From Halorhabdus utahensis DSM 12940 (GTDB lineage Archaea; Halobacteriota; Halobacteria; Halobacteriales; Haloarculaceae): a DNA stretch of 64,000 nucleotides. The stretch lies in contig NC_013158.1 in NCBI RefSeq assembly GCF_000023945.1, positions 1,984,001-2,048,000 on the forward strand, in the 5' to 3' direction. The translations under genes were made by a program, and so were the position numbers. This document shows, in pieces, positions 28,414-63,951 of this stretch. The number at the start of each line of letters is the position of its first letter. Within the stretch, counting starts at the first letter, position 1. The notes beneath the pieces were generated by a model. It saw only the letters and a program-made list of their open reading frames with translations. It made no database searches and was not told the origin of the DNA.

Positions 28414-28518
28414 CGTTTGGTTGTCCGTTCGTCGAAGCGAAATATTCCTCGGAATCCGAACGTGGCCGAACGAAATGTCTGTCAGAAATTATTTCAACGG
28501 GCACGATCTTTGGGGGAG

Positions 28519-29922
28519 ATGAAACAGCTGATGGTCCCCACACGAAGACAATATCTACAGACGATCGCAGGGCTCGGAGTGACTACAATCGGTTCGAACA
28601 CCGCCTCCGATGGGACAGCGGACACTACTGGGGAGGACTGGGGGCAGCTCGGATACGACAACGGGAACACGGGCCACGCTCGCGGGCATACAGGACCGAC
28701 CGAACGCGCCGGCGTGGCTTGGCGGGCCGATATCGAGGGGCACTACTACGAGTCGGCCCCGGCGGTCGTCGACGGGACGGTCTACGTCGGCAGCGCCGAT
28801 GGACAGATGTACGCCCTCGATGCTGCGGACGGCTCCCAGGAATGGACATTCCAGACCGAACTGAACATCTATTCCTCGCCCACAGTCGCGGATGGGGTCG
28901 TCTATTTCGGAAGTACTGACGGGAATGTCTACGCTGTCGACGCGACGGACGGCACCGAAGTCTGGACGTTTGAAACCCCATATAGTGTCCGCTGTTCGCC
29001 AGTCCTCGCCGATGGGACGCTCTTTATCGGCAGCAAGTACCGGCTGCTGTACGCTATCGACGCCGCCAGCGGTGTCGAGCAGTGGGCGTACGGAACGGGA
29101 ACGAGAGCTGGACCGTCCGGGTCACCGGCCGTCCGCAACGGGACTGTCTACGTCGCCAGCGATTATCGCCTCTATGCGATCAATGCCGAAGACGGCACAC
29201 GCCGATGGGAGTTCGAACCAGAGGGCGGAATCCATGCGTCGTCGCCGGCAGTCGCCGACGGGATCGTCTATATCGGTGGCGACAGGGGCGCCGTCTATGC
29301 GATCGATGCCGACGATGGCACGGAGCAGTGGACGTTCCAGACGGGCGAGGAGCGAACCTACCGGACGGGCAGATGGATCTGGTCGTCGCCGGCCGTCACG
29401 GACGGGACGGTGTACGTCGGTTCGGGGGACAAACACGTCTACGCGATCGATGCGAGCGACGGTCACGAGGAGTGGTCCTACCGGACGGGGAGAACCGTCA
29501 ATACGGCACCGGCCGTCGCGGACGACACTGTCTACGTCGGGAACGTCGAGTCGACGCTGTATGCCCTTGACGGGACTGACGGGACGGAACGCTGGACTCT
29601 CGGGTCGATTGATATTCACTATTCCTCGCCGGTCGTTGCCGATGGCAGCGTCTACATCGGAAGCCCCGATGGACACGTCTACGCGCTCGATGAGGATTCT
29701 GGTGGTGGTTCCATCGCCGTCGATGGGGTCGACGTTCCGCTCCCTGCCGCAGGAGGGCTGGCAGCGCTCTCTGGTGCGTTCGGGTACGCTGCCTATCGAA
29801 AGGTCTCGGCAGACGACGATCGAACTGATTCGACAGACGACCATTCGGCTGACGACGAGATTGACCAGATCGAAGCCGGTGTCGAAACCTCGAAGGCTCC
29901 CACTGTCGACCTTAGTCCGTGA
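28519..29922 (+). CDS. Tat-exported PQQ-like beta-propeller repeat protein with C-terminal anchor
   Basis: A 467-residue surface protein. The Tat motif is 'TRRQYLQTIAGLGV' (8-21). Residues of about 60-395 are made of eight or so repeats of the type 'PAVVDGTVYVGSADGQMYAL-DAADG-W', the PQQ/WD-like blade signature (quoted in parts). A hydrophobic stretch near 405-425 ('LPAAGGLAALSGAFGYAAY') and a charged tail indicate a membrane anchor. No PQQ-enzyme active site is apparent, so binding or scaffold work is likelier than catalysis. The ATG at 28519 has GGGGGAG just upstream. A truA fragment begins at its stop codon. Confidence 0.87.
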   Translation: MKQLMVPTRRQYLQTIAGLGVTTIGSNTASDGTADTTGEDWGQLGYDNGNTGHARGHTGPTERAGVAWRADIEGHYYESAPAVVDGTVYVGSADGQMYALDAADGSQEWTFQTELNIYSSPTVADGVVYFGSTDGNVYAVDATDGTEVWTFETPYSVRCSPVLADGTLFIGSKYRLLYAIDAASGVEQWAYGTGTRAGPSGSPAVRNGTVYVASDYRLYAINAEDGTRRWEFEPEGGIHASSPAVADGIVYIGGDRGAVYAIDADDGTEQWTFQTGEERTYRTGRWIWSSPAVTDGTVYVGSGDKHVYAIDASDGHEEWSYRTGRTVNTAPAVADDTVYVGNVESTLYALDGTDGTERWTLGSIDIHYSSPVVADGSVYIGSPDGHVYALDEDSGGGSIAVDGVDVPLPAAGGLAALSGAFGYAAYRKVSADDDRTDSTDDHSADDEIDQIEAGVETSKAPTVDLSP

Positions 29923-30044
29923 GTGATCGATCGAGACGCGCCTTCCGGATCGCACACGACGGTCGCCCCGGGTATCGCTTCTCGGGCCAACTCGACGTGG
30001 CGACGGTTTCGGATACGATCATCGACGTTCTTCGGGAATGCTAG
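29919..30044 (+). pseudogene. 5' fragment of a truA (tRNA pseudouridine synthase) copy
   Basis: A GTG at 29919 overlaps the stop of the beta-propeller gene and starts a frame with 'RRAFRIAHDGRP' and 'LDVATVSDTIIDVLRE' before a TAG at 30042-30044. The intact truA at 40052-40879 begins 'VTDVSRRAFRIAYDGRP' and continues 'DVATVSDAILDALRE', so the first 40 codons align almost residue by residue. Homology continues weakly after the stop ('ctcctcgaagaacgtcccg' against 'gtcctcgaagacggtgac'), with small deletions. The catalytic Asp region is missing. It is a decayed partial duplication or the scar of a lost paralogue. Confidence 0.75.
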
Positions 30045-30143
30045 CTCCTCGAAGAACGTCCCGTGGGTTGTCTCAACCGACAGCGACGGCAAACACTGCA
30101 AGTACGCCTTCCGGATGCTCGAACACGTCCGGGATGGCGGCTG

Positions 30144-31256
30144 CTATCGCTGTAGCGCCCGATCCACGTATTCGCCGATCGCCGATTTGAACTGCTCGCG
30201 AGTGAATCGATCGCGAGCGAGCGACGGGCGGTCGTCGGTGCTGATCGCGGTGTTGATCCGGTCGACAGCAGACTCCACGGAGTCGAACAACCGGTCGGCC
30301 CGGCCGTCGAGAATCTCTCGCTGGCCGCCGCCATCGGGTGCGAACGTGACCATCCCCGCCGAGACGTACTCGGCGACGGACATCCCGAAGTGTTCGTCCG
30401 GTTTGAGATTCAGCCCGTAGCGGTGGGTTCGAAGCAGGTTTTCGAGTCGCTCGCGCGGGACGTCACGCTCGAAGACGACGTGTGACCGCTGGTCTGCCGC
30501 CGCCGCTACCTTCTCAGCATATTCTCGATAGGAACGCGGTGCGGACCCGACGATGTGAAGGTGGATATCGTGGCCGCGGTTACGGAGCCGGTCGACGACG
30601 GTGATCGCATCCAGGACCCGTTTGTCGGGCGCGATCCGCCCGACGACGACGATCCCCTGCTCGCGGTCGTCCCACTCAAGACCGCCGTCTATGGCGTCGA
30701 CCGGGGGGTGCAGGACGTCGGGTCGAACGCCGTAGATGTCCTCGACAACGTCGGCCGTCCACGCCGAGTTTGCCAGCAGCGTCGCGTCCTGCAGATCATC
30801 CCGTTCAGGGCCGGCAAGTCGGCCCCAGAGCGGATTCAGCCGACCGGGGTCGGCGTCCTCGCGTTCCCGCAGATGAAACTGCGGATAGTGGATGTACTGG
30901 ACGGACGGCCCCGAAAAGGCGAACTCGTTTGCGGTACTCACCGCCAGGTCGAACGCGGCCGCGTGTCGTCGGAAGTGTCGCTCGACGAGCACGCTTCGGA
31001 CGGCCAATTGTGGCCCGATCTTCGGCGCGAGTCGGCCGAGAGTGCTCGCGAGCAGCCCATTGGCCGGTGGCGTCCGTACTGCGAGCCCGTCGAGGTCCGC
31101 GTCGAAGCGATCCGCCAGCACGTCAGGATCGGTCTCACTGAGGGTGAACAGCGTGACCTCGTGGTCAGTAAGCAGTGCTTCACAGGTCGCCAGACACACC
31201 GCGTCCGCGCCCCCCTGGAAATCGAGCGTGTTGTGAACCACAGCGACCTGCACCAT
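30144..31256 (-). CDS. Glycosyltransferase family 4
   Basis: A 370-residue GT-B glycosyltransferase. The N-terminal half opens with 'VAVVHNTLDFQGGADAVCLA', the acceptor-domain glycine loop. The C-terminal half shows 'GIVVVGRIAPDKRVLDAI' and 'YGLNLKPDEHFGMSVAEYVS', where 'EHFGMSVAE' is the donor-binding E-x7-E signature of GT4. It retains the anomeric configuration and uses an NDP-sugar; the sugar is unknown. It is cytoplasmic or membrane-peripheral. The next gene on the same strand encodes an AlkP-fold hydrolase, which suggests a surface-glycan pair. Confidence 0.9.
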   Translation of the reverse strand: MVQVAVVHNTLDFQGGADAVCLATCEALLTDHEVTLFTLSETDPDVLADRFDADLDGLAVRTPPANGLLASTLGRLAPKIGPQLAVRSVLVERHFRRHAAAFDLAVSTANEFAFSGPSVQYIHYPQFHLREREDADPGRLNPLWGRLAGPERDDLQDATLLANSAWTADVVEDIYGVRPDVLHPPVDAIDGGLEWDDREQGIVVVGRIAPDKRVLDAITVVDRLRNRGHDIHLHIVGSAPRSYREYAEKVAAAADQRSHVVFERDVPRERLENLLRTHRYGLNLKPDEHFGMSVAEYVSAGMVTFAPDGGGQREILDGRADRLFDSVESAVDRINTAISTDDRPSLARDRFTREQFKSAIGEYVDRALQR

Positions 31257-31301
31257 AGGGGGCGTTCGCCCCGGAGAGGAATATACTGCCGGCTCCGTCC
31301 G

Positions 31302-32171
31302 TCACCGGTAGCCGAGTGCGTCGAGACGTGCCCTGTCGTCCTCGGCACCGTAGACGCGACTCACTGGGAGCGGTTCCGGCGGCGATAGCTTCGGCGAGTA
31401 CGTCTCCCTCCCGCCGCCCGTCGTCTCGGCCCACGGGACAGTCAGGACTGCCGGGACCGGCAGGTGCATCGGATGGCCGTACAGCCCCCACTCGCCGAAG
31501 AGATTGGCGTGATCCGCGGTGATCGCGACGCGACCGGTGACATTCTCGGCGAGAATCGCGACCTCCTCGAGGACGTGTCTGAGATTGGCCTCGTAGGCGT
31601 CCCACACCCGATCGCTCGAAATCTCGCCGCGCCGGAGGGCGACCCAGGGGTTCGCGGGGTTGCTGTGGTCGCTGTTTCGAACCATGCCGTCGTCCGCCGA
31701 AAGCGGGTCCGGGACGAACGGATGGTGGGGCTGCATGTAGTGGACGACCAGCCGATGGGGGTCACGCTCGCGGGCCATCGTGATCGCCCGGTCGGTGACG
31801 GCCCGAGCGGGGACCGTTCCCTGGTCCTCGTCCCAGGCGTACTTCCAGACTTCGTCCAGGGCGGCGAAGGCGTCGGCCTCGACGTAGCGGTCGGTCCAGG
31901 TGTTGCCAGTCACCATCATGGTCCGGGCCGTTTCCGGATGCCCTGGAAACGTGTTTTCGAGCCACTCCGAGGACGAACTCCCGACTGATCGCATCGACTC
32001 GACATCCTCGATCAGGTCCGTTTCGAGGGCGACCGATCGGAGGACATCGACCCGGCAGGCGTCGAGCACGACGAGCACGTCCCACTCTCGATCGAGGACG
32101 TTCGTCCCCCTATCGAGTCGCTTGCCGATCGCCTGCAAGGCCCGGAGGTACGCGGTTCCGAGCCGACCCAT
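31302..32171 (-). CDS. Alkaline phosphatase superfamily (sulfatase-like) hydrolase, paralogue 2
   Basis: A 289-residue relative of the protein at 18812-19735. It shares 'EWDVLVVLDACRVDVL' (metal Asp), 'RLVVHYMQPHHPFVPDPL' and 'GRVAITADHANLFGEWGLYG' (Asp-His metal pair), and the closing 'DRARLDALGYR' parallels 'LESLGYV' of the other. The ATG at 32171 ('MGRLGTAYLRALQAIG') is used; upstream codons in frame are Ser/Pro/Ala/Arg rich and overlap the divergent gene. It precedes a GT4 gene by 45 bases in the direction of transcription. The substrate may be a phospho- or sulfo-sugar of the envelope, as inference. Confidence 0.82.
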   Translation of the reverse strand: MGRLGTAYLRALQAIGKRLDRGTNVLDREWDVLVVLDACRVDVLRSVALETDLIEDVESMRSVGSSSSEWLENTFPGHPETARTMMVTGNTWTDRYVEADAFAALDEVWKYAWDEDQGTVPARAVTDRAITMARERDPHRLVVHYMQPHHPFVPDPLSADDGMVRNSDHSNPANPWVALRRGEISSDRVWDAYEANLRHVLEEVAILAENVTGRVAITADHANLFGEWGLYGHPMHLPVPAVLTVPWAETTGGGRETYSPKLSPPEPLPVSRVYGAEDDRARLDALGYR

Positions 32172-32295
32172 GCCCGGTTCTGTCACGGTCGTGGTTCGTT
32201 CCAGGCGGACAAAACGGCATCGCCCCGCCTTGGGTGGGCCGCGGAACGATCCCCTCCGCCGGGACGCATTAGTACGTCCCGCCCGGGGTAGGTCC

Positions 32296-34269
32296 ATGGA
32301 CTGTCTGTTCGTAGGTGCCGGCGCGATCGCCGACGAGTACGCCGCCGGCCTGGCGTCGACGTCGCTCTCCCTTGCCGGGGTCTGTGATCTCGACGCCGAA
32401 TGCGCGGAAGGGCTCGCTGCGGAGCACGACTGCCCGGCGTTCACTGATCTGGAAACAGCACTGGCATCCGTCGACGCGCCAGTGGTGGTGAACCTGACGA
32501 CCCACGCGGCCCACGCCGAGGTGACCCGGACGGCGCTTTCGGCGGATCGACACGTCTACTCCCAGAAACCGCTCGCGCTCGACGCCGAGACCGCCGGCGA
32601 GCTACTGGAGATGGCCCGTGAGCGCGATCGCGCACTCGGTGTCGCGCCGGAGAACCCTGACGCCCCGTCACAGCGCCGGGCTGCCCGCGTCCTGGCCAGC
32701 GGACGGCCGGGTCCCGTGCAACTGGGTTACGCCCACGCCCACGTCGGCCGCGTGACTGACTGGCACGACCGGCCCGACTCGTTTCTTTCGATCGGGCCGC
32801 TGTACGACGGTGGCGTCTACCCGCTGACGCTGCTCGTCTCGTGGTTCGGCCCGGTCGAAACAGTCCGCGTCGCCGACGCCCTCGACATCTGGCCCGAGCG
32901 CGAGTCGAAACGGCCCTCGACACCCAGCCACATCGAGGCGACGCTCGCCTTCGAATCAGGACCAACCGTCCGGCTGACGGCCAGTTTCTACGCGCCCCAC
33001 CGGAGTCGAGAGTTCTACGGCCTCGAAGTGCACGGCGACGACGGATCGCTGTATCTCGAGGGCACTGGCGCGATGGAGACCGCCGTCGATGATGTTCAGT
33101 TCGGTCGCGTCGGTCGCGAGTACACCGCCGTGCCGCTCCAATCACCCACGTCGTCGGTCGAATACGCCGACGCTGTCGAGCGACTCGCTGACAGCGTCAC
33201 CGCGGGAACGCCTTCCCGGGAGACTGGTCGACGGGGTGCCCACGTCGTCGCCGTCTGCAACGCCATCGAGGTTGCTGCTGCCAACGGCGAACCGATCGAC
33301 GTGCCGGCCTATGGGACCACAGCCGATCCACTGCCTGCGACAGCTGTTCGGCCGGAGACTGCGGACGAGCGTTCGACCGGCAGTGACGGGATTCGACTCC
33401 CGCCGGTCGGCTTTGGCTGTTCGCGGTACCGTGACGGCGAGTACGTCGACCGCCGGGACTCCATCGCCACGGCGCTGGACGCGGGCTATCGCTTCCTCGA
33501 CAGCGCTGAACTCTACGGCAACGAACATCGGATCGGCGAGTTGCTCGCGGCCCCGGGCGCGCCGGACCGGGAAGCCGTCTTCGTCCTCGGGAAGGTCTGG
33601 CGGACGAACCACTGTCGCGAGCACATGATCGAGGCCGCCGAGGGGAGTCTCGCGGAACTCGGTCTCGACGCCTTCGACAGCTACGGCCTCCACTGGCCCG
33701 ACGCCTGGGCACACCGCGGGTCGCTCGACCGACTGGCGGAGTTGCCGGTGGAAAAACAGGAGGCCCGCTCCTTCCCCGAAACCGACGACGGCGATATCGA
33801 GACGGCCGACATCTCGCTCGAAACGGCCTGGGAGAACCTCGAAGCTGTTTACGACCAGGGACTCGCCCGGACGCTTTCTGTCTCGAACGTCACCCGATCA
33901 CAACTGGAGACGATCCTCGAAACCGGGCGTGTTCGACCCGAAATCGTCCAGATCGAGCGCCATCCCTACCAGCCACAGAATGAGCTCGTCTCGTTCTGTC
34001 AGGAGCGCGGTATCCGGGTGGTCGCCCACTCCCCACTGTCCGCCCCCGGCCTGCTGGACGAGCCGATACTCGCAGAGATTGGCGAAGAACACGGCCTCTC
34101 GCCGGCCGAGGTCGTCATCGCCTGGAACGTCTCGGAAACCGTCGTGCCGATCCCGTCGAGCACGACGCCGGCCCACATCGTTTCGAACCTGGCCGCAGCC
34201 CGAAAACGCCTTGCGCCCGCGGAGAGCGAGCGGATCGACGCACTTCGCGATCCCGATTTCGAGCGGTAG
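32296..34269 (+). CDS. Fusion of Gfo/Idh/MocA oxidoreductase and aldo/keto reductase
   Basis: A 657-residue two-domain oxidoreductase. Residues 1 to about 345 are a Gfo/Idh/MocA NAD(P) dehydrogenase: Rossmann start 'MDCLFVGAGAIADEY' and the catalytic-lysine motif as 'SQKPLAL' (Lys91, with Gln for the usual Glu). Residues about 365-657 are an aldo/keto reductase barrel with the full tetrad Asp402, Tyr407, Lys433 and His466, and the NADP-binding 'VVPIPSSTTPAHI' near the end. The join is a short disordered linker with no stop or frameshift. Such fusions are rare; channelling of a sugar between two oxidation states is inferred. ATG at 32296 diverges from the AlkP gene. Confidence 0.9.
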   Translation: MDCLFVGAGAIADEYAAGLASTSLSLAGVCDLDAECAEGLAAEHDCPAFTDLETALASVDAPVVVNLTTHAAHAEVTRTALSADRHVYSQKPLALDAETAGELLEMARERDRALGVAPENPDAPSQRRAARVLASGRPGPVQLGYAHAHVGRVTDWHDRPDSFLSIGPLYDGGVYPLTLLVSWFGPVETVRVADALDIWPERESKRPSTPSHIEATLAFESGPTVRLTASFYAPHRSREFYGLEVHGDDGSLYLEGTGAMETAVDDVQFGRVGREYTAVPLQSPTSSVEYADAVERLADSVTAGTPSRETGRRGAHVVAVCNAIEVAAANGEPIDVPAYGTTADPLPATAVRPETADERSTGSDGIRLPPVGFGCSRYRDGEYVDRRDSIATALDAGYRFLDSAELYGNEHRIGELLAAPGAPDREAVFVLGKVWRTNHCREHMIEAAEGSLAELGLDAFDSYGLHWPDAWAHRGSLDRLAELPVEKQEARSFPETDDGDIETADISLETAWENLEAVYDQGLARTLSVSNVTRSQLETILETGRVRPEIVQIERHPYQPQNELVSFCQERGIRVVAHSPLSAPGLLDEPILAEIGEEHGLSPAEVVIAWNVSETVVPIPSSTTPAHIVSNLAAARKRLAPAESERIDALRDPDFER

Positions 34270-34362
34270 GGTGGGACAAACCGCTTTCCTGGCTCGCCCG
34301 CCGATGCGGTAACGTGGGCCGCGGGCACCACGATTATGTACTCCTTTGCCGATATGTGTGGT

Positions 34363-34749
34363 ATGGCAACAACTACACAGTCAGGCGTGCAACTCAGAAC
34401 GGAGTCGCTTGGCGGCCTTCACTGGATCGGCATCCTCGCGGCACTGGTCAGTGCCGGGGTCCATCTCTTGCTCGGCGTCAGGATGGCTCCCTCGGGGATG
34501 GGAATCAGCTTCATCCTTGCAGGCCTCGGGTTTCTGGGCGCGATCGTCCTCATCCTGATCGACTATCGCCGTCGGGCGGTCTACGCCGTCGGGATCCCGT
34601 TCGTCCTCGCCCAGATCGGCCTGTGGCTGCTCATCAACTTCGTCAACGGCTCGAAGTCCTTCCCGGCCGATATCGGGACGCTCGGGGCGGTCGATAAGGT
34701 CGCACAGCTTGTGCTGGTCGGCATCCTCGTCGCACTGTTGCGATCCTGA
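34363..34749 (+). CDS. Small multispan membrane protein (DUF7475-like)
   Basis: A 128-residue protein with four predicted hydrophobic helices ('WIGILAALVSAGVHLLLGV', 'GISFILAGLGFLGAIVLILI', 'AVYAVGIPFVLAQIGLWLLI', 'VAQLVLVGILVALL'). The pattern of a His in the first helix and 'DYRRRAVY' between helices two and three recurs in a haloarchaeal family I associate with DUF7475. The ATG at 34363 ('MATTTQSGVQ') is chosen over one nine codons upstream. A weak TATA-like 'gattatgta' lies about 30 bases before. Function unknown. Confidence 0.72.
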   Translation: MATTTQSGVQLRTESLGGLHWIGILAALVSAGVHLLLGVRMAPSGMGISFILAGLGFLGAIVLILIDYRRRAVYAVGIPFVLAQIGLWLLINFVNGSKSFPADIGTLGAVDKVAQLVLVGILVALLRS

Positions 34750-34918
34750 TTCTTCCCCGTCAACTCCCAGGAAGGGGGCGATATGGGTCACAACTTTAGG
34801 GTGGTCCGGCCCTATTGCCGAGACGACTCCTGTATGAACCCGCCGACGGTGCCCCAGCTGAACGCGAGTGCTCGGTGTCCCGCCACAAAGAGCCCTCGCC
34901 TGGAGCCTGGAGGGGCGC

Positions 34919-35692
34919 ATGACTGACCGACCGCCCGAGAAGTCGGCATCTGTCGGGCTAGAAGTGGGGCTGCCCCTCGTCGGTGCGCTCGCAATCGGCG
35001 TCGTCCTTCGGGGGCTATATCCGCCCGGCGGGATCGACACCCGGCTGCTGGACCCGGCCGTCGTCGCCGGGCTCTGCCTGGGCGGCCAGCTATGGTATGT
35101 CAGCCATCGCCTCGTCCCGGCTCGCACTGCTGGCGAGCCCCTCGCCCGGCTGTTCGGGCTGGCCAATTCGCTCACCCTCCTTCGTGGCGCGCTGTATGCA
35201 GTCGTGGCCGGATTCGTCGTCGTGCCCCCTGATACGCCACTCGTCTGGATCCCAGCGCTGGCCTATGGAAGCGGTGTCGTCCTCGACAAATTGGACGGGA
35301 CCGTTGCTCGTACGCTCGGTCAGGAGACAACACTGGGGGAGCGACTCGATATGACGTTCGATACGTTCGGCTTCGTCGCCGCGCCGGTGGTCGCTGTCGT
35401 CTGGGGGCGACTTCCGGTCTGGTATCTCTCGCTCTCGGCTGCCAGGTACGTCTATCGCGCCGGCTTAGCGTGGCGAACGCGCCGTGACCGGCCGGTGTTC
35501 GACCCACCTGACAGCAACGTCGGCAAGTACCTGGCCGGCGTCCAGATGGTGTTTCTCACCGCGGCGCTCGCGCCGGCTGTGCCGGGACACCTTGTCTGGA
35601 CCGCGGCCCCGCTCGTCCTCGCCCCGTCGCTTGCTGTCTTCGCCCGTGATTTCCTGGTTGTGACTGGTCGGCTTTCGGGCCAGGAGCGCTGA
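34919..35692 (+). CDS. CDP-alcohol phosphatidyltransferase
   Basis: A 257-residue integral membrane enzyme that transfers a phospho-group from a CDP-lipid or CDP-alcohol to an alcohol. The family motif D-G-x2-A-R-x8-G-x3-D-x3-D is present as 'DGTVARTLGQETTLGERLDM' followed by TFD (about 124-146). Six or so hydrophobic helices surround it. A good Shine-Dalgarno 'ggagg' lies eight bases before the ATG at 34919. The neighbours downstream are membrane hydrolase and PAP2 genes, which supports a lipid-head-group role. Confidence 0.9.
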   Translation: MTDRPPEKSASVGLEVGLPLVGALAIGVVLRGLYPPGGIDTRLLDPAVVAGLCLGGQLWYVSHRLVPARTAGEPLARLFGLANSLTLLRGALYAVVAGFVVVPPDTPLVWIPALAYGSGVVLDKLDGTVARTLGQETTLGERLDMTFDTFGFVAAPVVAVVWGRLPVWYLSLSAARYVYRAGLAWRTRRDRPVFDPPDSNVGKYLAGVQMVFLTAALAPAVPGHLVWTAAPLVLAPSLAVFARDFLVVTGRLSGQER

Positions 35693-35718
35693 AGTGCGTC
35701 CAGACCCTCTGTGCTGAC

Positions 35719-36192
35719 GTGCTCTTTCCGACGCATCTCCTGGTGGCCGCCCTGCTTTCACGGGCGTCCCGTCTGTCGATGCCGTGGCTGGTGGTCGGCG
35801 CGGCGGCTCCCGACGTCATCGACAAACCACTCGGCATGGTCGGGGTCGTCGAGCTGTATCACTCGGTCGGCCACTCGGTGTTGCTATTCGCCATCGTCGT
35901 GCCTGTCGCGGTGTCGAGTGCTGCCGGTCTGGGGGTCGCGGTCGGCTGGGCATCACATCTCGTTGCCGATGGTCTGCACGTCGTCGTCAACGGCCGTCCA
36001 GATGCCCTCCTGTCGCTGGGCTGGCCGGTCGTGACGCCGCCCGACCCGCTGGCGATCCCGCCAGGGGCATTTTTCGGATACTATGTCGGATCGGCGTCGT
36101 TCTTCCTCGAAGTCGGCCTCTGGGTGCTCGGGGGCGTCGCCGTACTATCGGGATCGCGGGCCGTCTCACGTGTTCGTGGCGACGGGCTGTGA
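35719..36192 (+). CDS. Membrane-bound metal-dependent hydrolase (YdjM/DUF457-like)
   Basis: A 157-residue membrane protein. 'MLFPTHLLVAALLSRASRLS' at the start, 'AAAPDVIDKPLGMVGVVELY', 'HSVGHSVLLFAIVVPV' and 'GWASHLVADGLHVV' supply the ordered His and Asp residues of the DUF457/YdjM metal-dependent hydrolase family. It has about four helices. It starts with GTG at 35719, 26 bases after the phosphatidyltransferase gene, so the two are probably co-transcribed. The substrate is unknown. Confidence 0.8.
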   Translation: MLFPTHLLVAALLSRASRLSMPWLVVGAAAPDVIDKPLGMVGVVELYHSVGHSVLLFAIVVPVAVSSAAGLGVAVGWASHLVADGLHVVVNGRPDALLSLGWPVVTPPDPLAIPPGAFFGYYVGSASFFLEVGLWVLGGVAVLSGSRAVSRVRGDGL

Positions 36193-36255
36193 CATGGCTC
36201 CGGTCACCTCGGCCGGAGAGTCCATGTACGCCCAGCCAGTAGGCACGGCAAGCGT

Positions 36256-36825
36256 ATGGAACAGCTACTTAGCGATCTCATCCAGTGGATCGTGGCGTTC
36301 GACACCGCTGCCGTCGATGTCCTCCTCGACCTTCGAAGCCCGCTGCTCACCAAATTCATGAACTCGATAACCGGGCTCGGATCGGTGGCGGCCGGACTGG
36401 TCTTTCTCGGCCTGGTCTATCTCGCCGAGTGGCGCGAGGAGTTTCGACTCATGTTCGTCGCCATGGCGCTCAGCGGAGTGATCGTCATTACGCTGATGTT
36501 CACCGTTCAGCGCCCCTATCCACCAAACCCAGTCTGTCTGACCGACGGCTCCGGAACGGTCGTCCACTCGTTCCCGTCGGGTCATGCAGCTGCCGCTGCA
36601 ATCTACGCGACGGTCGCCCATCGATCCGAGACGATCCCGTTTCGAATCACTGCGATCCTGGCGACGGCGCTCGCGTTTTCACGATTTTATCTCGGAACAC
36701 ATTACCTCTCGGACACATTGGTCGGCGTCTTCATCGGGATCGGAACCGTGCTGATCGCCGAGCGACTCATCGAGTCCGGTCGCCTTTCTCCCCTCTTCAG
36801 CCGTCTGTCAGCTACCCACGGCTGA
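36256..36825 (+). CDS. PAP2-family membrane phosphatase
   Basis: A 189-residue lipid-phosphatase-like protein. The three-part PAP2 signature is present: 'VQRPYPPNP' (from K-x6-R-P, with the Lys weakly conserved), 'FPSGHAAAAAIYA' with the catalytic His, and 'SRFYLGTHYLSDTLVG' with the second His and Asp. Hydrophobic segments alternate with these motifs. It would dephosphorylate a lipid or isoprenoid phosphate on the outer face of the membrane. Its last residues 'SATHG' are encoded by an IS605-type hairpin at 36815-36834, so the natural C-terminus may have been altered. Confidence 0.9.
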   Translation: MEQLLSDLIQWIVAFDTAAVDVLLDLRSPLLTKFMNSITGLGSVAAGLVFLGLVYLAEWREEFRLMFVAMALSGVIVITLMFTVQRPYPPNPVCLTDGSGTVVHSFPSGHAAAAAIYATVAHRSETIPFRITAILATALAFSRFYLGTHYLSDTLVGVFIGIGTVLIAERLIESGRLSPLFSRLSATHG

Positions 36826-36834
36826 AGCCGTGGG
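36815..36834. repeat. Hairpin typical of IS200/IS605-type element ends (solo remnant)
   Basis: 'cccacggc' and 'gccgtggg' form a perfect 8-base stem around 'tgaa', and 'cttccgcgct' follows. This hairpin and the sequence after it resemble the right end of haloarchaeal IS200/IS605 and IS1341-type (tnpB-bearing) elements. No tnpA or tnpB frame is nearby. The stop codon of the PAP2 gene lies in the loop. Confidence 0.5.
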
Positions 36835-36900
36835 CTTCCGCGCTGTTACCGCTGTGAGCCGCCCGCGCGTTCCGGGGGAGAAATCACAGCAGTCCGAACA

Positions 36901-37707
36901 ATGATTACCGACCCGCTCGTACACTACCCAGTGACGACAGCAACCCAGGTCGCGCTCATACAGATCGACGACTACGGTCCCTGGACTGTCACGCCCGAGC
37001 CACGGCGTGAGATGGATCTGCAGTACTTGCAGGCGTCGCTGTTCGCTGACTTCGCTGCGTTCGTGGACGGGGCTGGCGGGTACGCCTTCTATGGGCGATT
37101 CGACAACATGTACGCCGTCGGCAACGAGATCGATCCGGCGGACTTCGAGCGGTTTCAGCGCCGGGTCCGAAACCGGTATCCAGTCACTGTGAGCATCGGC
37201 GTCGGGCTGGCCGAGTCGCCCGTCGAGGCGCTGGGCGAGGCAAGCGAACGCCTCCAGGCGGCGGGCAGCGCCCAGGACGGCAATCGCCGCGAGGCACTCG
37301 TCATCGGTGACGACGAACCGGCTGATACCGGAATGGTGACTGTTGGTCACTTCGACGTCGTCGACGTGACCGGATCGCTGACGGATCGTGAGAACGCCAT
37401 TGACGTGTCGCTTGCAATCAGACGAGCCACGCTCGAACTGGCAACGTATCTCCGGACCGAGTACGACAGTCTCGCCCACTTCGTCGGCGGCGACAACATC
37501 ATCGCCATCTGTCCCGACATCCCCCCGCAGGCGTTCGACAACGCGATCGAACACGTCCGTGTGGAGACGGACATCGAACTCCAGGTCGGCATCGGCCGCG
37601 GCCCGACCGCCCAGGCCGCCGGTGAGCAAGCCAAAGAAGCACTCGAACAGTGTCGAGCGACCGGGGCTCGAATACACGGCGACGGGCAACTCCCGGCGGA
37701 CGACTGA
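36901..37707 (+). CDS. arfA: GTP cyclohydrolase III (archaeal riboflavin/F420 entry enzyme)
   Basis: A 268-residue enzyme that turns GTP into the formylamino-pyrimidine intermediate (FAPy), the first archaeal step toward riboflavin and the deazaflavin F420. Diagnostic stretches are 'TQVALIQIDDYGPWTVTPEP', 'REMDLQYLQASLFADFAAFV', 'YGRFDNMYAVGN' and the second half 'LAHFVGGDNIIAICPDIPPQ'. Two related GGDEF-like halves make up the protein. The last base of its stop is the first base of the next gene's ATG (TGATG), so translation is coupled. A bacterial-type RibBA with another GTP cyclohydrolase lies at 62713-63951. Confidence 0.93.
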   Translation: MITDPLVHYPVTTATQVALIQIDDYGPWTVTPEPRREMDLQYLQASLFADFAAFVDGAGGYAFYGRFDNMYAVGNEIDPADFERFQRRVRNRYPVTVSIGVGLAESPVEALGEASERLQAAGSAQDGNRREALVIGDDEPADTGMVTVGHFDVVDVTGSLTDRENAIDVSLAIRRATLELATYLRTEYDSLAHFVGGDNIIAICPDIPPQAFDNAIEHVRVETDIELQVGIGRGPTAQAAGEQAKEALEQCRATGARIHGDGQLPADD

Positions 37708-38717
37708 TGACGGGCGAGTCGCTGTACTTCACCGGTCCCGAAGCGCTCGACCTGCGCGAACGATCGGTCGAGGTCTCGGCCGATGAGGTGCTCGTCGAGA
37801 CGCACGTCTCGGCCATCAGTCCCGGGACAGAACTGCTTATCTATCACGGCGAGGCCCCGCGTGATCTCCCGGCCGACGAAACCCTCGACGCGCTGGATGG
37901 CGACCTCTCGTATCCGTTGCGATACGGCTACGCCGCCGTCGGCGAGGTGATCGAGACCGGATCGGCCGTTGATCCGTCCTGGCAGGGTCGAGAGGTCTTC
38001 GGCTTCAACCCACACGAAACCCGATTCAGCGCCGAGCCCTCGACCCTCATTCCGGTCCCTGACGGGACTGTTGCCGAGGAGATGGTCATGTATCCGACCG
38101 TCGAGACGGCGACGACGCTCGTCCTCGATGGCGGGCCGCGAGTCGGCGAGCGGGTGGTCGTCTTCGGTGCCGGCGCGATCGGGCTGTGTGTGATCGGGTT
38201 ACTGGCGTCGTTTCCGCTGTCGGAACTGGTTGTCGTCGACCCGCTTTCGGCGCGCCGCGAACGTGCCCGGCAACTGGGTGCCGATACGACCCTGGCACCG
38301 GATGACCTGACGGCAAATCGCTGGGACGATGCGGCTGGGCCGGACGGCGCCGACCTGGTGTATGAACTCTCGGGTACCCCGTCGGCACTGGACGACGCCC
38401 TCGCGGTTGCGGGCTACGATAGTCGGATCGTCGTCGGCTCCTGGTACGGCACCAAGTCACCGACACTCGACCTCGGCGGGGATTTCCACCGCGACCGCGT
38501 CTCGATCGAGTCCAGCCAGGTGAGTACGATCGACCCGGATCGTCGCGGCCGCTGGTCGTTCGATCGCCGCACCGAAGTCACACTCGACAATCTGGCGTCG
38601 CTCCCGGTCGAATCCCTGGTCACGCACCGGATCCCGTTCGAAGAGGCCCCCGACGCGTACCGACTCCTCGACGACCAGCCCGAAGACGCCCTACAGGTCC
38701 TGCTGACGTACCACTGA
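37707..38717 (+). CDS. MDR-family dehydrogenase lacking zinc ligands (BchC-like)
   Basis: A 336-residue medium-chain dehydrogenase/reductase. The Rossmann motif is 'VVVFGAGAIGLCVIGLL'. The N-terminal catalytic domain reads 'VETHVSAISPGTELLIYHGE', so the usual G-x-C-x-S/T-D catalytic-zinc cysteine is replaced by 'SPGTE', and the four-Cys structural zinc lobe is absent. This 'SPGTE' pattern is shared with BchC-like proteins. It is therefore likely a zinc-independent NAD(P) oxidoreductase. The substrate is unknown. It overlaps arfA by one base and is followed after 20 bases by a PTPS-fold gene. Confidence 0.85.
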   Translation: MTGESLYFTGPEALDLRERSVEVSADEVLVETHVSAISPGTELLIYHGEAPRDLPADETLDALDGDLSYPLRYGYAAVGEVIETGSAVDPSWQGREVFGFNPHETRFSAEPSTLIPVPDGTVAEEMVMYPTVETATTLVLDGGPRVGERVVVFGAGAIGLCVIGLLASFPLSELVVVDPLSARRERARQLGADTTLAPDDLTANRWDDAAGPDGADLVYELSGTPSALDDALAVAGYDSRIVVGSWYGTKSPTLDLGGDFHRDRVSIESSQVSTIDPDRRGRWSFDRRTEVTLDNLASLPVESLVTHRIPFEEAPDAYRLLDDQPEDALQVLLTYH

Positions 38718-38737
38718 CAGGGCACAGTCACAGACAA

Positions 38738-39160
38738 ATGACCGAACCATCGAACGAACCCAATCCAATGACATCCCACACCTACGAACTGACGGTCACA
38801 CGCGAATTCGTCGCACAGCACTTCCTCACCGTCCCCGATCCGGGGCCGGAAGGCGTTCCCCACAGCCACCACTTTACCGTCGAAGTTCGCTTTGGCGGCC
38901 CCGAACTCGGCGAGTACGGCTATCTCGTCGATATCGACGACGTCGAGGCCATCCTCGATGATCTCGAAGACCGCTATCGCGATGCGCTTCTCAACGATCT
39001 TCCCGAATTCGAGGGGCTGAATCCGAGCGTCGAGCACTTCGCCCGCCTGTTCGGCGACCGCGTGGCAGACGCCCTGGCGAATCCAAACCTGGAACACCTT
39101 CAGATCCGGCTCTGGGAAGACGACGTTTCCTGGGCGAGTCACGCACGCGATCTCGAATGA
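38738..39160 (+). CDS. 6-pyruvoyltetrahydropterin synthase (PTPS) fold protein, Cys-less
   Basis: A 140-residue (130 if the ATG at 38768 is used) T-fold protein. Zinc ligands are His28 in 'FVAQHFL' and His42/His44 in 'VPHSHHFTVEV'. 'GYLVDIDDVEAILDDLEDRY' and 'NPSVEHFARLF' are the other family elements. The catalytic cysteine expected four residues before the HxH pair in QueD/PTPS is missing, and Glu38 stands in its place. That resembles the Glu-type PTPS-III variants described in folate-related reactions, so it is not a standard QueD. It overlaps the next gene by four bases (ATGA). Confidence 0.82.
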   Translation: MTEPSNEPNPMTSHTYELTVTREFVAQHFLTVPDPGPEGVPHSHHFTVEVRFGGPELGEYGYLVDIDDVEAILDDLEDRYRDALLNDLPEFEGLNPSVEHFARLFGDRVADALANPNLEHLQIRLWEDDVSWASHARDLE

Positions 39161-40008
39161 ACCACACCGAGACCCGGTATCTCGAAGCCAAGCGGTCGCT
39201 CGACGATTGCGCTCGCTCGCCTCGTGTTCGCGATCGGCTGCTGTCGGCACTCGCCTCCGAGCCCCAGATCCTCGATATCGGCTGTGGCACGGGGACGACG
39301 GTGCCACGGCTGATCGAGTGGGGCATCGATACCGCCACCTACCGGGGTGTCGACGGCGACGCTGGCGTGATCGAGTTCGCGCGCGCTGTCCGGCCTGCCG
39401 AGCTCCGGCGCATCGGCCGCAGCGTCACCCACGAAGAGCGTGGGTTCACTGTCGCGGATCTCTCGGTCGCCTACGAGACCGGCGACGCGCTCGCGGCACT
39501 CGAGGCCGCCGAGGCTGTCGATCTGATTGTCGCCCAGGCCTTCGCCGATCTGGTTCCGATTCCCGAGTTGCTGGCCGGGATCGAATCGGCACTGGCCCCG
39601 GGTGGCCTCGCGTATCTCCCGATCACCTTCGACGGCGGGACGATATTCCAGCCCGACCATCCCGCAGACGAAGCCGTCGAAGCGGCCTATCACGACGCGA
39701 TCGACGCCGAGCCCGGCCGGGACGTCCACGCCGGTCGGCACCTGGCCGACGCCTGTCGCCGTGCGGACGGCGATCTGCTCGCGATGGCCGCATCGGACTG
39801 GGTCCTTCGTCCTCGCGACGGGTCCTATTCCGCCGATGAAGCCTATTTCCTTGGGTGTATTCTCGACTTCGTCGAGACCGCACTTTCGGACGCGGATGTG
39901 ACACAGTCTGCGGACTGGATAGCCACCCGCCGGGAACAACTGGCTGCCGGCGAATTGACCTACGTCGCCCACCAGTACGATCTTCTGTATCGGGCCGCGG
40001 AGACCTGA
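39157..40008 (+). CDS. Class I SAM-dependent methyltransferase
   Basis: A 283-residue methyltransferase. The SAM loop is 'ILDIGCGTGTTVPRLIEW', followed by 'YRGVDGDAGVIEFARAV' (acidic ribose-binding residue) and 'DLIVAQAFADLVPIPELLAG'. The C-terminal 100 residues carry a separate helical region with 'YFLGCILDFVETALSDADV'. It overlaps the PTPS-fold gene by four bases (ATGA), a strong sign that its product works in the same pathway. Substrate unknown; a pterin- or flavin-like compound is possible by context. Confidence 0.82.
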   Translation: MNHTETRYLEAKRSLDDCARSPRVRDRLLSALASEPQILDIGCGTGTTVPRLIEWGIDTATYRGVDGDAGVIEFARAVRPAELRRIGRSVTHEERGFTVADLSVAYETGDALAALEAAEAVDLIVAQAFADLVPIPELLAGIESALAPGGLAYLPITFDGGTIFQPDHPADEAVEAAYHDAIDAEPGRDVHAGRHLADACRRADGDLLAMAASDWVLRPRDGSYSADEAYFLGCILDFVETALSDADVTQSADWIATRREQLAAGELTYVAHQYDLLYRAAET

Positions 40009-40051
40009 CTGCCGTCGAAAGGGCGAAGGCCCGCGCCGTCGAATTTGGCCC

Positions 40052-40879
40052 GTGACCGACGTTTCGAGACGGGCGTTTCGAATCGCCTACGACGGCCGCC
40101 CGTTCCACGGGTTCCAGCGCCAGCCCGACGTGGCGACTGTTTCTGACGCGATCCTCGACGCGCTCCGGGAGCTGGATGTCCTCGAAGACGGTGACAACGT
40201 CCCGCCCGGCTATGCCGCCGCCGGACGCACGGACGCCGGCGTCTCGGCACTCGCCCAGACCGTCGCCTTTGATTGCCCGGACTGGCTCTCGCCCGCGGCG
40301 CTCAATAGCGAACTCCCGGCCGACGTCCGGGCCTGGGCGAGCGCCGACGTGCCCGCCGAGTTTCACGCGACTCACGACGCCGTCGCCCGCGAGTACACGT
40401 ATCACCTTCACGCCCCGGACGCATCGGTGTCGCGGGCAGGGGATGCCCTCGACGCCCTCGCCGGCGAGCACGATTTTCACAACTTCACGCCCGACGACAC
40501 CGGGACCGTGCGCGATCTCACTGGCGAGGCACGGAGTGAGGGTGACTTTCTGGTCGTGACTCTCCGCGCCGACGGGTTCCCCCGACAGTTCGTCCGGCGG
40601 GCCGTCACCGTCATCGACGCCCTCGCGAGTGGTGTGGCCGAACTCGACCGGATCGAGCAACTGCTCGGGGACGACCCGGTCGAGGGGCCCGCGGGCGTCG
40701 CGCCGGCTGCCCCCGAAGCGCTGGTCCTGACTGCTGTCGAGTACCCGGGTCTCTCCTTCGAACGCGACGAGTCAGCACTCGCGAGTGCGCGTGCAATCTT
40801 CGAAACGAAAGCGATCGATCACCGGACGAACGCCCGGGTCGCCTCGAGGATCGCCGACGGGATCGATCAGGAAGAGTGA
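40052..40879 (+). CDS. truA: tRNA pseudouridine(38-40) synthase TruA
   Basis: A 275-residue TruA that isomerises uridines of the tRNA anticodon stem. 'RRAFRIAYDGRPFHGFQRQP' at the start and 'AAGRTDAGVSALAQTVAFD' with catalytic Asp61 are diagnostic; 'FHATHDAVAREYTYHL' and 'FPRQFVRRAVTVIDALASG' follow. It starts with GTG at 40052. A truncated copy of its first 40 codons lies at 29919-30044. It is the last gene of the same-strand run that starts near 34.4 kb. Confidence 0.95.
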   Translation: MTDVSRRAFRIAYDGRPFHGFQRQPDVATVSDAILDALRELDVLEDGDNVPPGYAAAGRTDAGVSALAQTVAFDCPDWLSPAALNSELPADVRAWASADVPAEFHATHDAVAREYTYHLHAPDASVSRAGDALDALAGEHDFHNFTPDDTGTVRDLTGEARSEGDFLVVTLRADGFPRQFVRRAVTVIDALASGVAELDRIEQLLGDDPVEGPAGVAPAAPEALVLTAVEYPGLSFERDESALASARAIFETKAIDHRTNARVASRIADGIDQEE

Positions 40880-62184: not shown

Positions 62185-62661
62185 TTAGAACTCGTCGAGG
62201 AGGTTCGCCATCTCGATGGCACTTTCGGCGGCCTCGCTCCCCTTGTTCCCCTGCTTGACGCCCGCGCGATTGATCGCCTGCTCGGTCGTGTCCGTCGTGA
62301 GTACACCGAACGAGATCGGAACGTCGGTGTCGAGAGTCGCCTTCGCGACCCCCTTGGTTGCCTCGTTGGAGACGTACTCGAAGTGCGGAGTTTCGCCGCG
62401 GATGACCGCGCCGAGTGCGATCACGGCGTCGTAGTCGCCGCTTTCGGCCATACGTTTGGCCATCAGGGGGATCTCGAACGAGCCGGGAACGCGGGCGACA
62501 TCGATGTCGTCCTCGCTGGCCCCGTGACGGGTCAGCGTATCGAGCGCGCCGTCGAGAAGTTTGCCGGTGATGAGGTCGTTGAATCGGCTGACGACGATGC
62601 CGACGGTCAGTCCACTCGCGTCCAGTTCGCCTTCGAGTTCGGTGACGTCGTAGTCTGTCAT
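62185..62661 (-). CDS. ribH: 6,7-dimethyl-8-ribityllumazine synthase
   Basis: A 158-residue lumazine synthase that joins the dihydroxybutanone phosphate to the ribityl-pyrimidine. It shows '[20 protein letters not shown]', '[20 protein letters not shown]', '[20 protein letters not shown]' and '[20 protein letters not shown]' followed by '[18 protein letters not shown]'. The last pattern is that of bacterial-type RibH, which forms 60-mers. It follows ribBA by 51 bases on the same strand, completing a bacterial-type rib operon. Confidence 0.95.
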
Positions 62662-62712
62662 GGGTGAAAGAGTGTTGTGTCGGGTGGTAAGTGTGGCGTT
62701 GCGCGATCGTCT

Positions 62713-63951
62713 TCAGTCGGAGTTGAACACGTCGAGTTGATGGTCGAGCTTTTCGGCTTTGGTCGCGAGATAGGCCTCGTTCTCGGGGTTGGGTTCGATC
62801 TCCAGGGAGTCGATTTCGACGTCGAACTCGAACCGTTCGAGCGCGGCGGCCTTCCGCGGGTTGTTCGTCAGCAGACGCACGCGATCCAGCCCGATGTCCC
62901 TGAGCATCTGGGCGGCCGCGTCGAAGCGTCGCTCGTCGGGTTCGAACCCGAGTTCGACGTTGGCCTCGACGGTGTCGTAGCCGTGCTCCTGTAACTCGTA
63001 GGCCTTGAGTTTGTTGAGCAGGCCGATCCCGCGTCCCTCCTGATCGAGGTACAGCAGGACGCCACCCTCGTCGCTGATGCGTTGCATGGTCTCTTCGAGC
63101 TGGAACCCGCAGTCACACTTCAGGGAGTGCAAGGCGTCGCCGGTCAGACACTTCGAGTGGATCCGGACCAGCGGCCGGTCGGTCTCGGGATCGACGTCGT
63201 CGAGGTTGACCAGCGCGACGTGGGTCTCGCCGCGGTAGTCGTACCCGTACATGTCGAAGGTACCGAACGCCGTCGGCAGCCGGGTGTCGACTTCCCGGGA
63301 GACGAGCGTCTCGGTCAGGTGGCGATACTCGAGGACATCGGCAACGGTTACGATCGGCAACTCGTGTTCGTCGGCGAATTCCAGCAGCCGATCCTCCCGG
63401 GCCATCGTGCCGTCGTCGTCGACGACCTCGCAGATCACGCCGCCGGGCCGGTAGCCGGCGATTCGGGCGAGGTCGACCGCCGCTTCGGTGTGACCCTCGC
63501 GGTCGAGCACGCCGTCGGCTTTGGCCTCCAGGGGGAAGATGTGTCCTGGTTTGTCGAGATCTGCCGGTTCGGTCTCGGGATCGACCAGCGCCTGGACCGT
63601 CTCGGCGCGATCGTACGCCGAGATGCCCGTCCCCGTCGAGGCGGCGTCGACCGAGACGGTGAAGCGGGTACTCATCTCCTCGGTGTTCTCGGAGGCGGGG
63701 ACCATCTGTTCGAGGCCCAGATCGTCCGTGATTTCGGGGCTGACAGGCGCACAGACCAGTCCACGGCCGTGCTTGAGCATGAAATTCATCTGCTCGGGGG
63801 TGATCGCCTCCGCGGGCACGTACAGGTCGCCCTCGTCCTCGCGACTCTGCTCGTCGACCAACAGGATCATCTCGCCGTCCTCGATGGCGTCGATCGCCGT
63901 CTCGATGTCGTCGAAGCGCGAGCGATCCCGGTCCGATTCGATGACTGTCAT
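62713..63951 (-). CDS. ribBA: Bifunctional DHBP synthase / GTP cyclohydrolase II
   Basis: A 412-residue two-domain enzyme. The first 205 residues are RibB (ribulose-5-phosphate to dihydroxybutanone phosphate): 'DEQSREDEGDLYVPAEAI' (34-51) and 'HGRGLVCAP' (61-69). The second half is GTP cyclohydrolase II with zinc ligands Cys268, Cys279 and Cys281 and the GTP-binding 'YLDQEGRGIGLLNKLKAYEL' (301-320). Both active sites look intact. The protein is of bacterial type. It gives this archaeon a second GTP cyclohydrolase for riboflavin besides ArfA. Its ATG overlaps the stop of the preceding gene (ATGA). Confidence 0.95.
   Translation of the reverse strand: MTVIESDRDRSRFDDIETAIDAIEDGEMILLVDEQSREDEGDLYVPAEAITPEQMNFMLKHGRGLVCAPVSPEITDDLGLEQMVPASENTEEMSTRFTVSVDAASTGTGISAYDRAETVQALVDPETEPADLDKPGHIFPLEAKADGVLDREGHTEAAVDLARIAGYRPGGVICEVVDDDGTMAREDRLLEFADEHELPIVTVADVLEYRHLTETLVSREVDTRLPTAFGTFDMYGYDYRGETHVALVNLDDVDPETDRPLVRIHSKCLTGDALHSLKCDCGFQLEETMQRISDEGGVLLYLDQEGRGIGLLNKLKAYELQEHGYDTVEANVELGFEPDERRFDAAAQMLRDIGLDRVRLLTNNPRKAAALERFEFDVEIDSLEIEPNPENEAYLATKAEKLDHQLDVFNSD

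Follow-up and report, generated by a model that had tools for sequence, protein, structure and literature searches.

A run of four genes in Halorhabdus utahensis DSM 12940 probably forms the core of a GTP-based pathway that leads to neither riboflavin nor F420, a reading to which we assign a probability of roughly 60%. The genes lie in a window of 64,000 nucleotides (positions 1,984,001-2,048,000 of the complete 3,116,795-base genome) and encode an ArfA-type GTP cyclohydrolase (GCH), a medium-chain dehydrogenase/reductase (MDR), a protein of the 6-pyruvoyltetrahydropterin synthase (PTPS) fold and an S-adenosylmethionine (SAM)-dependent methyltransferase. In window coordinates, they read as follows:

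36901..37707, + strand, arfA (arfA2), GTP cyclohydrolase III (GCH_III 8.6e-87; GTP cyclohydrolase IIa 7.9e-110)
37707..38717, + strand, zinc-less MDR dehydrogenase, NAD(P)-binding (ADH_zinc_N 1.7e-13; SxGTE, YGY, SWYG and SSQVS motifs)
38738..39160, + strand, PTPS/T-fold protein with an ExxxHSH motif (PTPS 1e-26)
39157..40008, + strand, class I SAM-dependent methyltransferase (Methyltransf_25 2.4e-8)

An earlier note on this DNA had described the order and the tight spacing of these genes, and the exact coordinates bear it out: the MDR gene, with its ATG at 37707 and its stop at 38717, overlaps arfA by one base and is followed after 20 bases by the PTPS gene, which in turn overlaps the methyltransferase gene by four bases. 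That the genes serve a dedicated GTP-derived pathway, distinct from those of riboflavin, F420 and archaeosine, is the firmest part of our interpretation and appears very likely. The pathway is probably undescribed, as the same note had suggested, and the proposal, now on firmer ground than in that note, is supported by the co-occurrence of MDR and PTPS, the gene pattern within the genus, a clade of dedicated arfA copies and a homologous cluster in Streptomyces.

MDR and PTPS go together across the 194 haloarchaeal genomes sampled: 112 have both, two have PTPS only, none has MDR only and 80 have neither. The PTPS search gave 117 matches, three of which were weak (E 6e-5 to 7e-4) and were discounted, and the 112 matches of the MDR search all fell within the PTPS set. 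Around 40 PTPS genes (PTPS itself 40/40), the neighbourhoods hold MDR in 38 cases, the methyltransferase in 34, a family 4 glycosyltransferase (GT4) in 27 and another GT4 type in nine, a CDP-alcohol phosphotransferase in 27, DUF7475 in 25 and arfA in 16. This co-occurrence and the recurring neighbours attest to a real, conserved functional gene unit, and a check in relatives did not find the MDR-PTPS-GT4-methyltransferase set scattered. The limits first drawn around four genes were nonetheless too narrow: their core is real, whereas the unit is larger, GT4 and the CDP-alcohol phosphotransferase recurring in archaea and Streptomyces alike.

The position of arfA requires separate treatment, as the gene is found in 189 of the 194 genomes. 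The window ArfA aligns over its full length with MJ GCH III (2QV6) and keeps the active-site motifs RFDN, GGDN and GSAQD; its family is clear and, judging from these motifs, it would convert GTP to 2-amino-5-formylamino-6-ribosylaminopyrimidinone 5'-phosphate (AFRPP). It is the sole arfA of its genome. In a tree of 42 arfA copies, it falls in a clade of 12, of which 11 are cluster-linked, separated from the housekeeping clade with an SH-aLRT of 100. Mapping the cluster label on this tree takes six changes, at least four of them forced by starred branches (shuffled labels average 14.3), and the cluster linkage of arfA is gained or lost several times. Several genomes hold both a housekeeping and a cluster arfA. 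Among the 76 columns invariant in the housekeeping copies and the methanogen enzyme, 46 are unchanged in all dedicated copies and the remaining ones carry substitutions. At least 39 genomes among 117, counted by hand from listed coordinates, place arfA no farther than about 10 kb from PTPS or MDR, against about 0.7 expected at random placement, a comparison that ignores kinship and treats genomes that are not independent. The claim that arfA is a member of the cluster is therefore upheld by the dedicated clade and the separate linkages, and qualified by a linkage seen in part of the genomes only. Two genomes, G085 and G109 (L207, L208, L210), carry two arfA copies and no PTPS or MDR, with no cluster genes in the arfA neighbourhoods retrieved. 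A third, G044, has PTPS and MDR and no arfA match at 1e-20, possibly owing to an assembly gap.

Within the genus, the fate of arfA has to be seen together with a bacterial-type riboflavin pair, found in the window at:

62713..63951, - strand, bacterial-type RibBA (PF00925), adjoining ribH
62185..62661, - strand, bacterial-type RibH (lumazine synthase), beside RibBA (1.2e-60; other haloarchaea reach 1e-30 to 1e-37)

A PF00925 RibBA occurs in five of the 194 haloarchaea, which are all five genomes of Halorhabdus. RibA yields the deformylated pyrimidine directly, so that flavin synthesis in this genus would be expected to do without ArfA; from its sequence, RibBA is predicted to provide the flavin precursors in its place. 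None of the four congeners has arfA, MDR or PTPS, and they retain ArfC, RibH and CofH. Since RibBA is present in all five genomes and arfA was lost in the four without MDR and PTPS, the window arfA has been kept only with the cluster, and it is probably not needed for flavins. Taken by itself, the ribBA-ribH pair (62185-63951, - strand), with arfA loss in four of five genomes, has taken the place of the first steps in archaeal riboflavin synthesis.

The PTPS-fold protein has the T-fold, the three zinc histidines and the pterin-anchoring Glu of the COG0720 superfamily, which includes QueD and PTPS-I, -II and -III, and its AlphaFold model reaches a pLDDT of 91. As had been noticed, a Glu replaces the catalytic Cys: Glu38 aligns with Cys27 of Escherichia coli QueD and is Glu in 51 of 51 haloarchaeal sequences. 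The loss of the triad goes further than the earlier note had seen, for relative to QueD, Asp70 is replaced by Arg in 45 and His71 by Asp in 52 of 53 haloarchaeal sequences, the window protein having both changes. Zinc histidines 16, 31 and 33 and the anchoring Glu110 (QueD numbering) are retained. Its ExxxHSH motif matches neither the CxxxHGH and Cys-Asp-His triad of PTPS-I/QueD nor the ExxHGH motif that defines the folate enzymes of PTPS-III (PMC5041015), its Glu being one residue more distant. The top structural match of the model in the PDB is SCO6650 of Streptomyces coelicolor (3D7J), ahead of QueD, and SCO6650 also ranks first when the window protein alone is the query of a sequence search; a common tree branch and a shared MDR-PTPS-GT4-methyltransferase neighbourhood place the two in one subfamily. 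Two other PTPS-like finds deserve mention. A second, seemingly broken copy at L053 (G038), beside CDP-alcohol phosphotransferase, DUF7475 and Gfo-AKR genes, is perhaps a decaying duplicate of the cluster, and in a few haloarchaea (L238 in G130, L241 in G127) a third, distinct set of QueD-like proteins branches away from the usual QueD of haloarchaea.

The SxGTE (SPGTE in the window), YGY, SWYG and SSQVS motifs are invariant in the MDR, and the absence of zinc ligands that had been proposed for it is confirmed in all 13 aligned sequences, where the Cys usual before G-T in zinc-dependent alcohol dehydrogenases is replaced (SxGTE) and GHE has become YGY. The methyltransferase has the Rossmann-like fold and glycine-rich SAM loop of class I enzymes, and fold comparison returned general class I matches only.

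A further link to GTP comes from outside the haloarchaea. A search with the SCO6650 sequence gave 80 Streptomyces loci, 64 of them full-length, and 63 of these 64 contain a CDP-alcohol phosphotransferase (divergent), MDR, PTPS, GT4, methyltransferase, an LPG_synthase_TM protein, a creatininase on the opposite strand and a GCH II; 73 loci in all have one gene order. The Streptomyces MDR is about 35% identical to that of the window. These loci share with the haloarchaeal ones the MDR-PTPS-GT4-methyltransferase core, the CDP-alcohol phosphotransferase and an enzyme that turns GTP into AFRPP or the diaminopyrimidine. They differ in having a GCH II (Tyr105Met) for ArfA, a creatininase and an LPG-type membrane protein within the cluster, and a PTPS in which the third zinc His and the Glu are both missing (63/63). 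In 73 of 73 loci, the residue of the cluster GCH II that corresponds to E. coli Tyr105 is Met, and eight Streptomyces genomes searched whole gave Met in the eight cluster enzymes and Tyr in all 18 others. In work of 2006 by Spoonamore and others, which PMC3509567 cites, this Tyr-to-Met change reportedly halts SCO6655 at the formylated intermediate, the compound that ArfA produces. A third arrangement occurs in G211, a non-haloarchaeal archaeon of the same phylum, where methyltransferase, GCH II, MDR, PTPS and GT4 stand in a row, with a PTPS of the ExxxHSH type as in haloarchaea and a GCH II that retains Tyr. MDR also adjoins PTPS in genomes G266, G282 and G301.

As three lineages have different GTP-opening enzymes in one gene set, and arfA persists in the window organism with no obvious need for flavins, the most economical reading is that this gene set consumes a GTP-derived pyrimidine. 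ArfA2 would open GTP to AFRPP, and a creatininase-family formamidase of the ArfB/BrbF type, encoded elsewhere in haloarchaeal genomes and within the cluster in Streptomyces, would strip its formyl group and leave the 2,5-diaminopyrimidine; the creatininase-family BrbF deformylates AFRPP (PMC9478397). The PTPS-fold protein would then bind the pyrimidine and, as the likeliest of its possible reactions, rearrange and close it to a dihydroneopterin-type phosphate. Such a ring closure, modelled on the later steps of the related T-fold enzyme GTP cyclohydrolase I, is in itself rather doubtful. A zinc-independent rearrangement fits both groups of organisms more easily than zinc hydrolysis, because the Streptomyces protein lacks the third zinc His. 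From their families, the MDR could oxidise or reduce a side-chain alcohol, GT4 add a sugar and the methyltransferase a methyl group, and the CDP-alcohol phosphotransferase may link the product through a phosphodiester to a lipid or another alcohol. The enzymes encoded would suggest a glycosylated, methylated pteridine or diaminopyrimidine, at somewhat less than even odds, which is possibly lipid-linked. A pterin-type product, one of the two named in the earlier note, is possible, and charged pterins were long ago reported from halobacteria, which is a lead for the product and not evidence. In its widest form, which we advance tentatively, archaea and actinobacteria would share a pathway to a GTP-derived cofactor, or a pteridine glycoconjugate linked to the membrane, that is not yet described; at least three GTP ring-opening enzymes (GCH III, GCH II Tyr105Met and GCH II Tyr) would have been recruited for the first step, and PTPS would perform a reaction new to its fold.

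Several points weigh against this reading. The linkage of arfA is one of them, for only about one in three PTPS genomes has it close to the cluster, and in the others the universal arfA would have to serve. The zinc ligand kept in haloarchaeal PTPS and lost in Streptomyces means that the chemistry may differ, and the Tyr of the G211 enzyme would make the branch metabolite perhaps the deformylated diaminopyrimidine and not AFRPP. The Tyr-to-Met effect in SCO6655 is a reported one, and SCO6655 is presumed to be the GCH II of the Streptomyces cluster locus. The branch separating cluster-type PTPS of all lineages from QueD (support 97/95.6) comes from short sequences and long branches. The distribution of creatininases, taken as a test of PTPS replacing ArfB, was uninformative, the family being universal (194/194 haloarchaea). 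Finally, Zallot 2016 cites unpublished work placing a 'PTPS-IV' in F420 synthesis (PMC5041015).

The last point belongs to the alternative that survives best, improbable as we judge it, in which the cluster is an accessory of riboflavin or F420 synthesis, arfA acts in its usual role and PTPS helps to make the deazaflavin. ArfA is indeed the first enzyme of both pathways, and deletion of arfA (HVO_1284) in Haloferax volcanii causes riboflavin auxotrophy (PMC8305020), a result to be expected wherever this gene also supplies flavins. PTPS-IV is possibly the same archaeal group as the protein described here, but a role in F420 does not match the distribution found. PTPS and MDR are missing from 80 of the 194 haloarchaea, whereas CofH, ArfC and RibH were present in all 16 genomes tested, eight of them without PTPS; PTPS is thus absent from some genomes that have F420 genes. 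The deazaflavin that the earlier note gave as its other possible product is accordingly not supported, since every PTPS-less genome tested keeps CofH and ArfC and the Halorhabdus RibBA should be able to give flavin precursors. The cluster arfA also survives in Halorhabdus despite RibBA, several genomes have a second arfA within the cluster, and the Streptomyces cluster carries its own extra GCH II. Compared with the ArfA-ArfB-ArfC and CofG/H route, the dedicated pathway that we favour would have in common the first enzyme and probably the first intermediate, while the cluster contains no ArfC, RibH, RibB or CofG/H and its ArfA is of a separate clade.

Two further alternatives are given a slightly smaller probability. 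If arfA lay next to these genes by chance or for purely regulatory reasons, the actual unit would be a glycolipid or cell-surface set (GT4, CDP-alcohol phosphotransferase, MDR, PTPS and methyltransferase) without GTP-derived pyrimidines. The modest share of PTPS loci with arfA, next to the recurrence of GT4 and CDP-alcohol phosphotransferase, would suit such a set, as would the weak match of the window PTPS to TIGR03112, a PTPS-related domain model. A neighbour of this kind would hardly form a dedicated clade with several separate linkages, or survive in Halorhabdus only with the cluster, nor would an unrelated GTP-opening enzyme be expected in the Streptomyces cluster (73/80 loci) and G211. 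Alternatively, the PTPS-fold protein could itself be the AFRPP deformylase, substituting for ArfB through its zinc site and Glu38 and not acting later. The retained histidines and the Glu invariant in haloarchaea would allow it, and GCH I, itself a T-fold enzyme, eliminates that formyl carbon; the Streptomyces orthologue, however, lacks the third His and the Glu and has a creatininase in its own cluster, and haloarchaea all have creatininases. A role as the QueD of the genome (preQ0/archaeosine), suggested by its being the single PF01242 match there, was rejected as having a negligible chance: the catalytic Cys, Asp and His are all replaced, it scores 43.4 bits against an equivalog cut-off of 89.25, it stands on a separate branch, many other haloarchaea have a separate QueD alongside and the congeners have neither cluster PTPS nor QueD.

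The enzyme families and this kind of GTP-derived cluster are known, while the pathway and its product are probably undescribed, as far as the literature could be searched. Our search found no paper on phosphohalopterin or on SCO6650, no product described for the Streptomyces locus and no earlier link between it and archaea, and the product has a fair chance of belonging to a new class of compounds. If correct, the pathway would give a purpose to two orphans, the GCH II paralogue of Streptomyces, whose reaction reportedly ends at AFRPP, and the PTPS-like protein of haloarchaea, which may be the one suspected of a role in F420. It would also point to a GTP-derived metabolite, undescribed as far as found, that is shared by over half of the haloarchaea sampled and by many Streptomyces.

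Upstream of the four genes, the window holds further members of the neighbourhood:

30144..31256, - strand, GT4 glycosyltransferase (Glycos_transf_1 1.7e-15), within the 10-kb block below
31302..32180, - strand, 292-aa protein without a Pfam match; a homologue with 73% identity stands next to MDR-PTPS in other haloarchaea
32293..34269, + strand, Gfo/Idh/MocA oxidoreductase fused to an aldo/keto reductase (14/40 PTPS loci)
34336..34749, + strand, DUF7475 small membrane protein (25/40 PTPS loci)
34868..35692, + strand, CDP-alcohol phosphotransferase (CDP-OH_P_transf 1.7e-18; 27/40 haloarchaeal and 79/80 Streptomyces loci)
35719..36192, + strand, 157-aa membrane protein, a conserved neighbour (8/40 loci), no Pfam match
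36256..36825, + strand, PAP2-family phosphatase (4/40 loci)
30028..40013, no strand, whole block, missing as a unit at the syntenic place in congener G088, between conserved flanks

The CDP-alcohol phosphotransferase and PAP2 genes agree with the lipid head-group enzymes reported upstream in the earlier note. The GT4 gene is the probable stand-in for the one located between PTPS and the methyltransferase elsewhere, and the 292-aa protein presumably resembles alkaline-phosphatase/sulfatase-type proteins. The Gfo/Idh/MocA-aldo/keto reductase fusion lies beside the cluster in several haloarchaeal families. In congener G078, the missing stretch corresponds to 28417-40010, and the comparison with congeners is compatible with a gain in the window genome or a loss elsewhere. 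On either side of the block lies a partial, diverged truA-like repeat (29881-30055 and 40014-40188, 71% identity), perhaps a trace of the block's entry.

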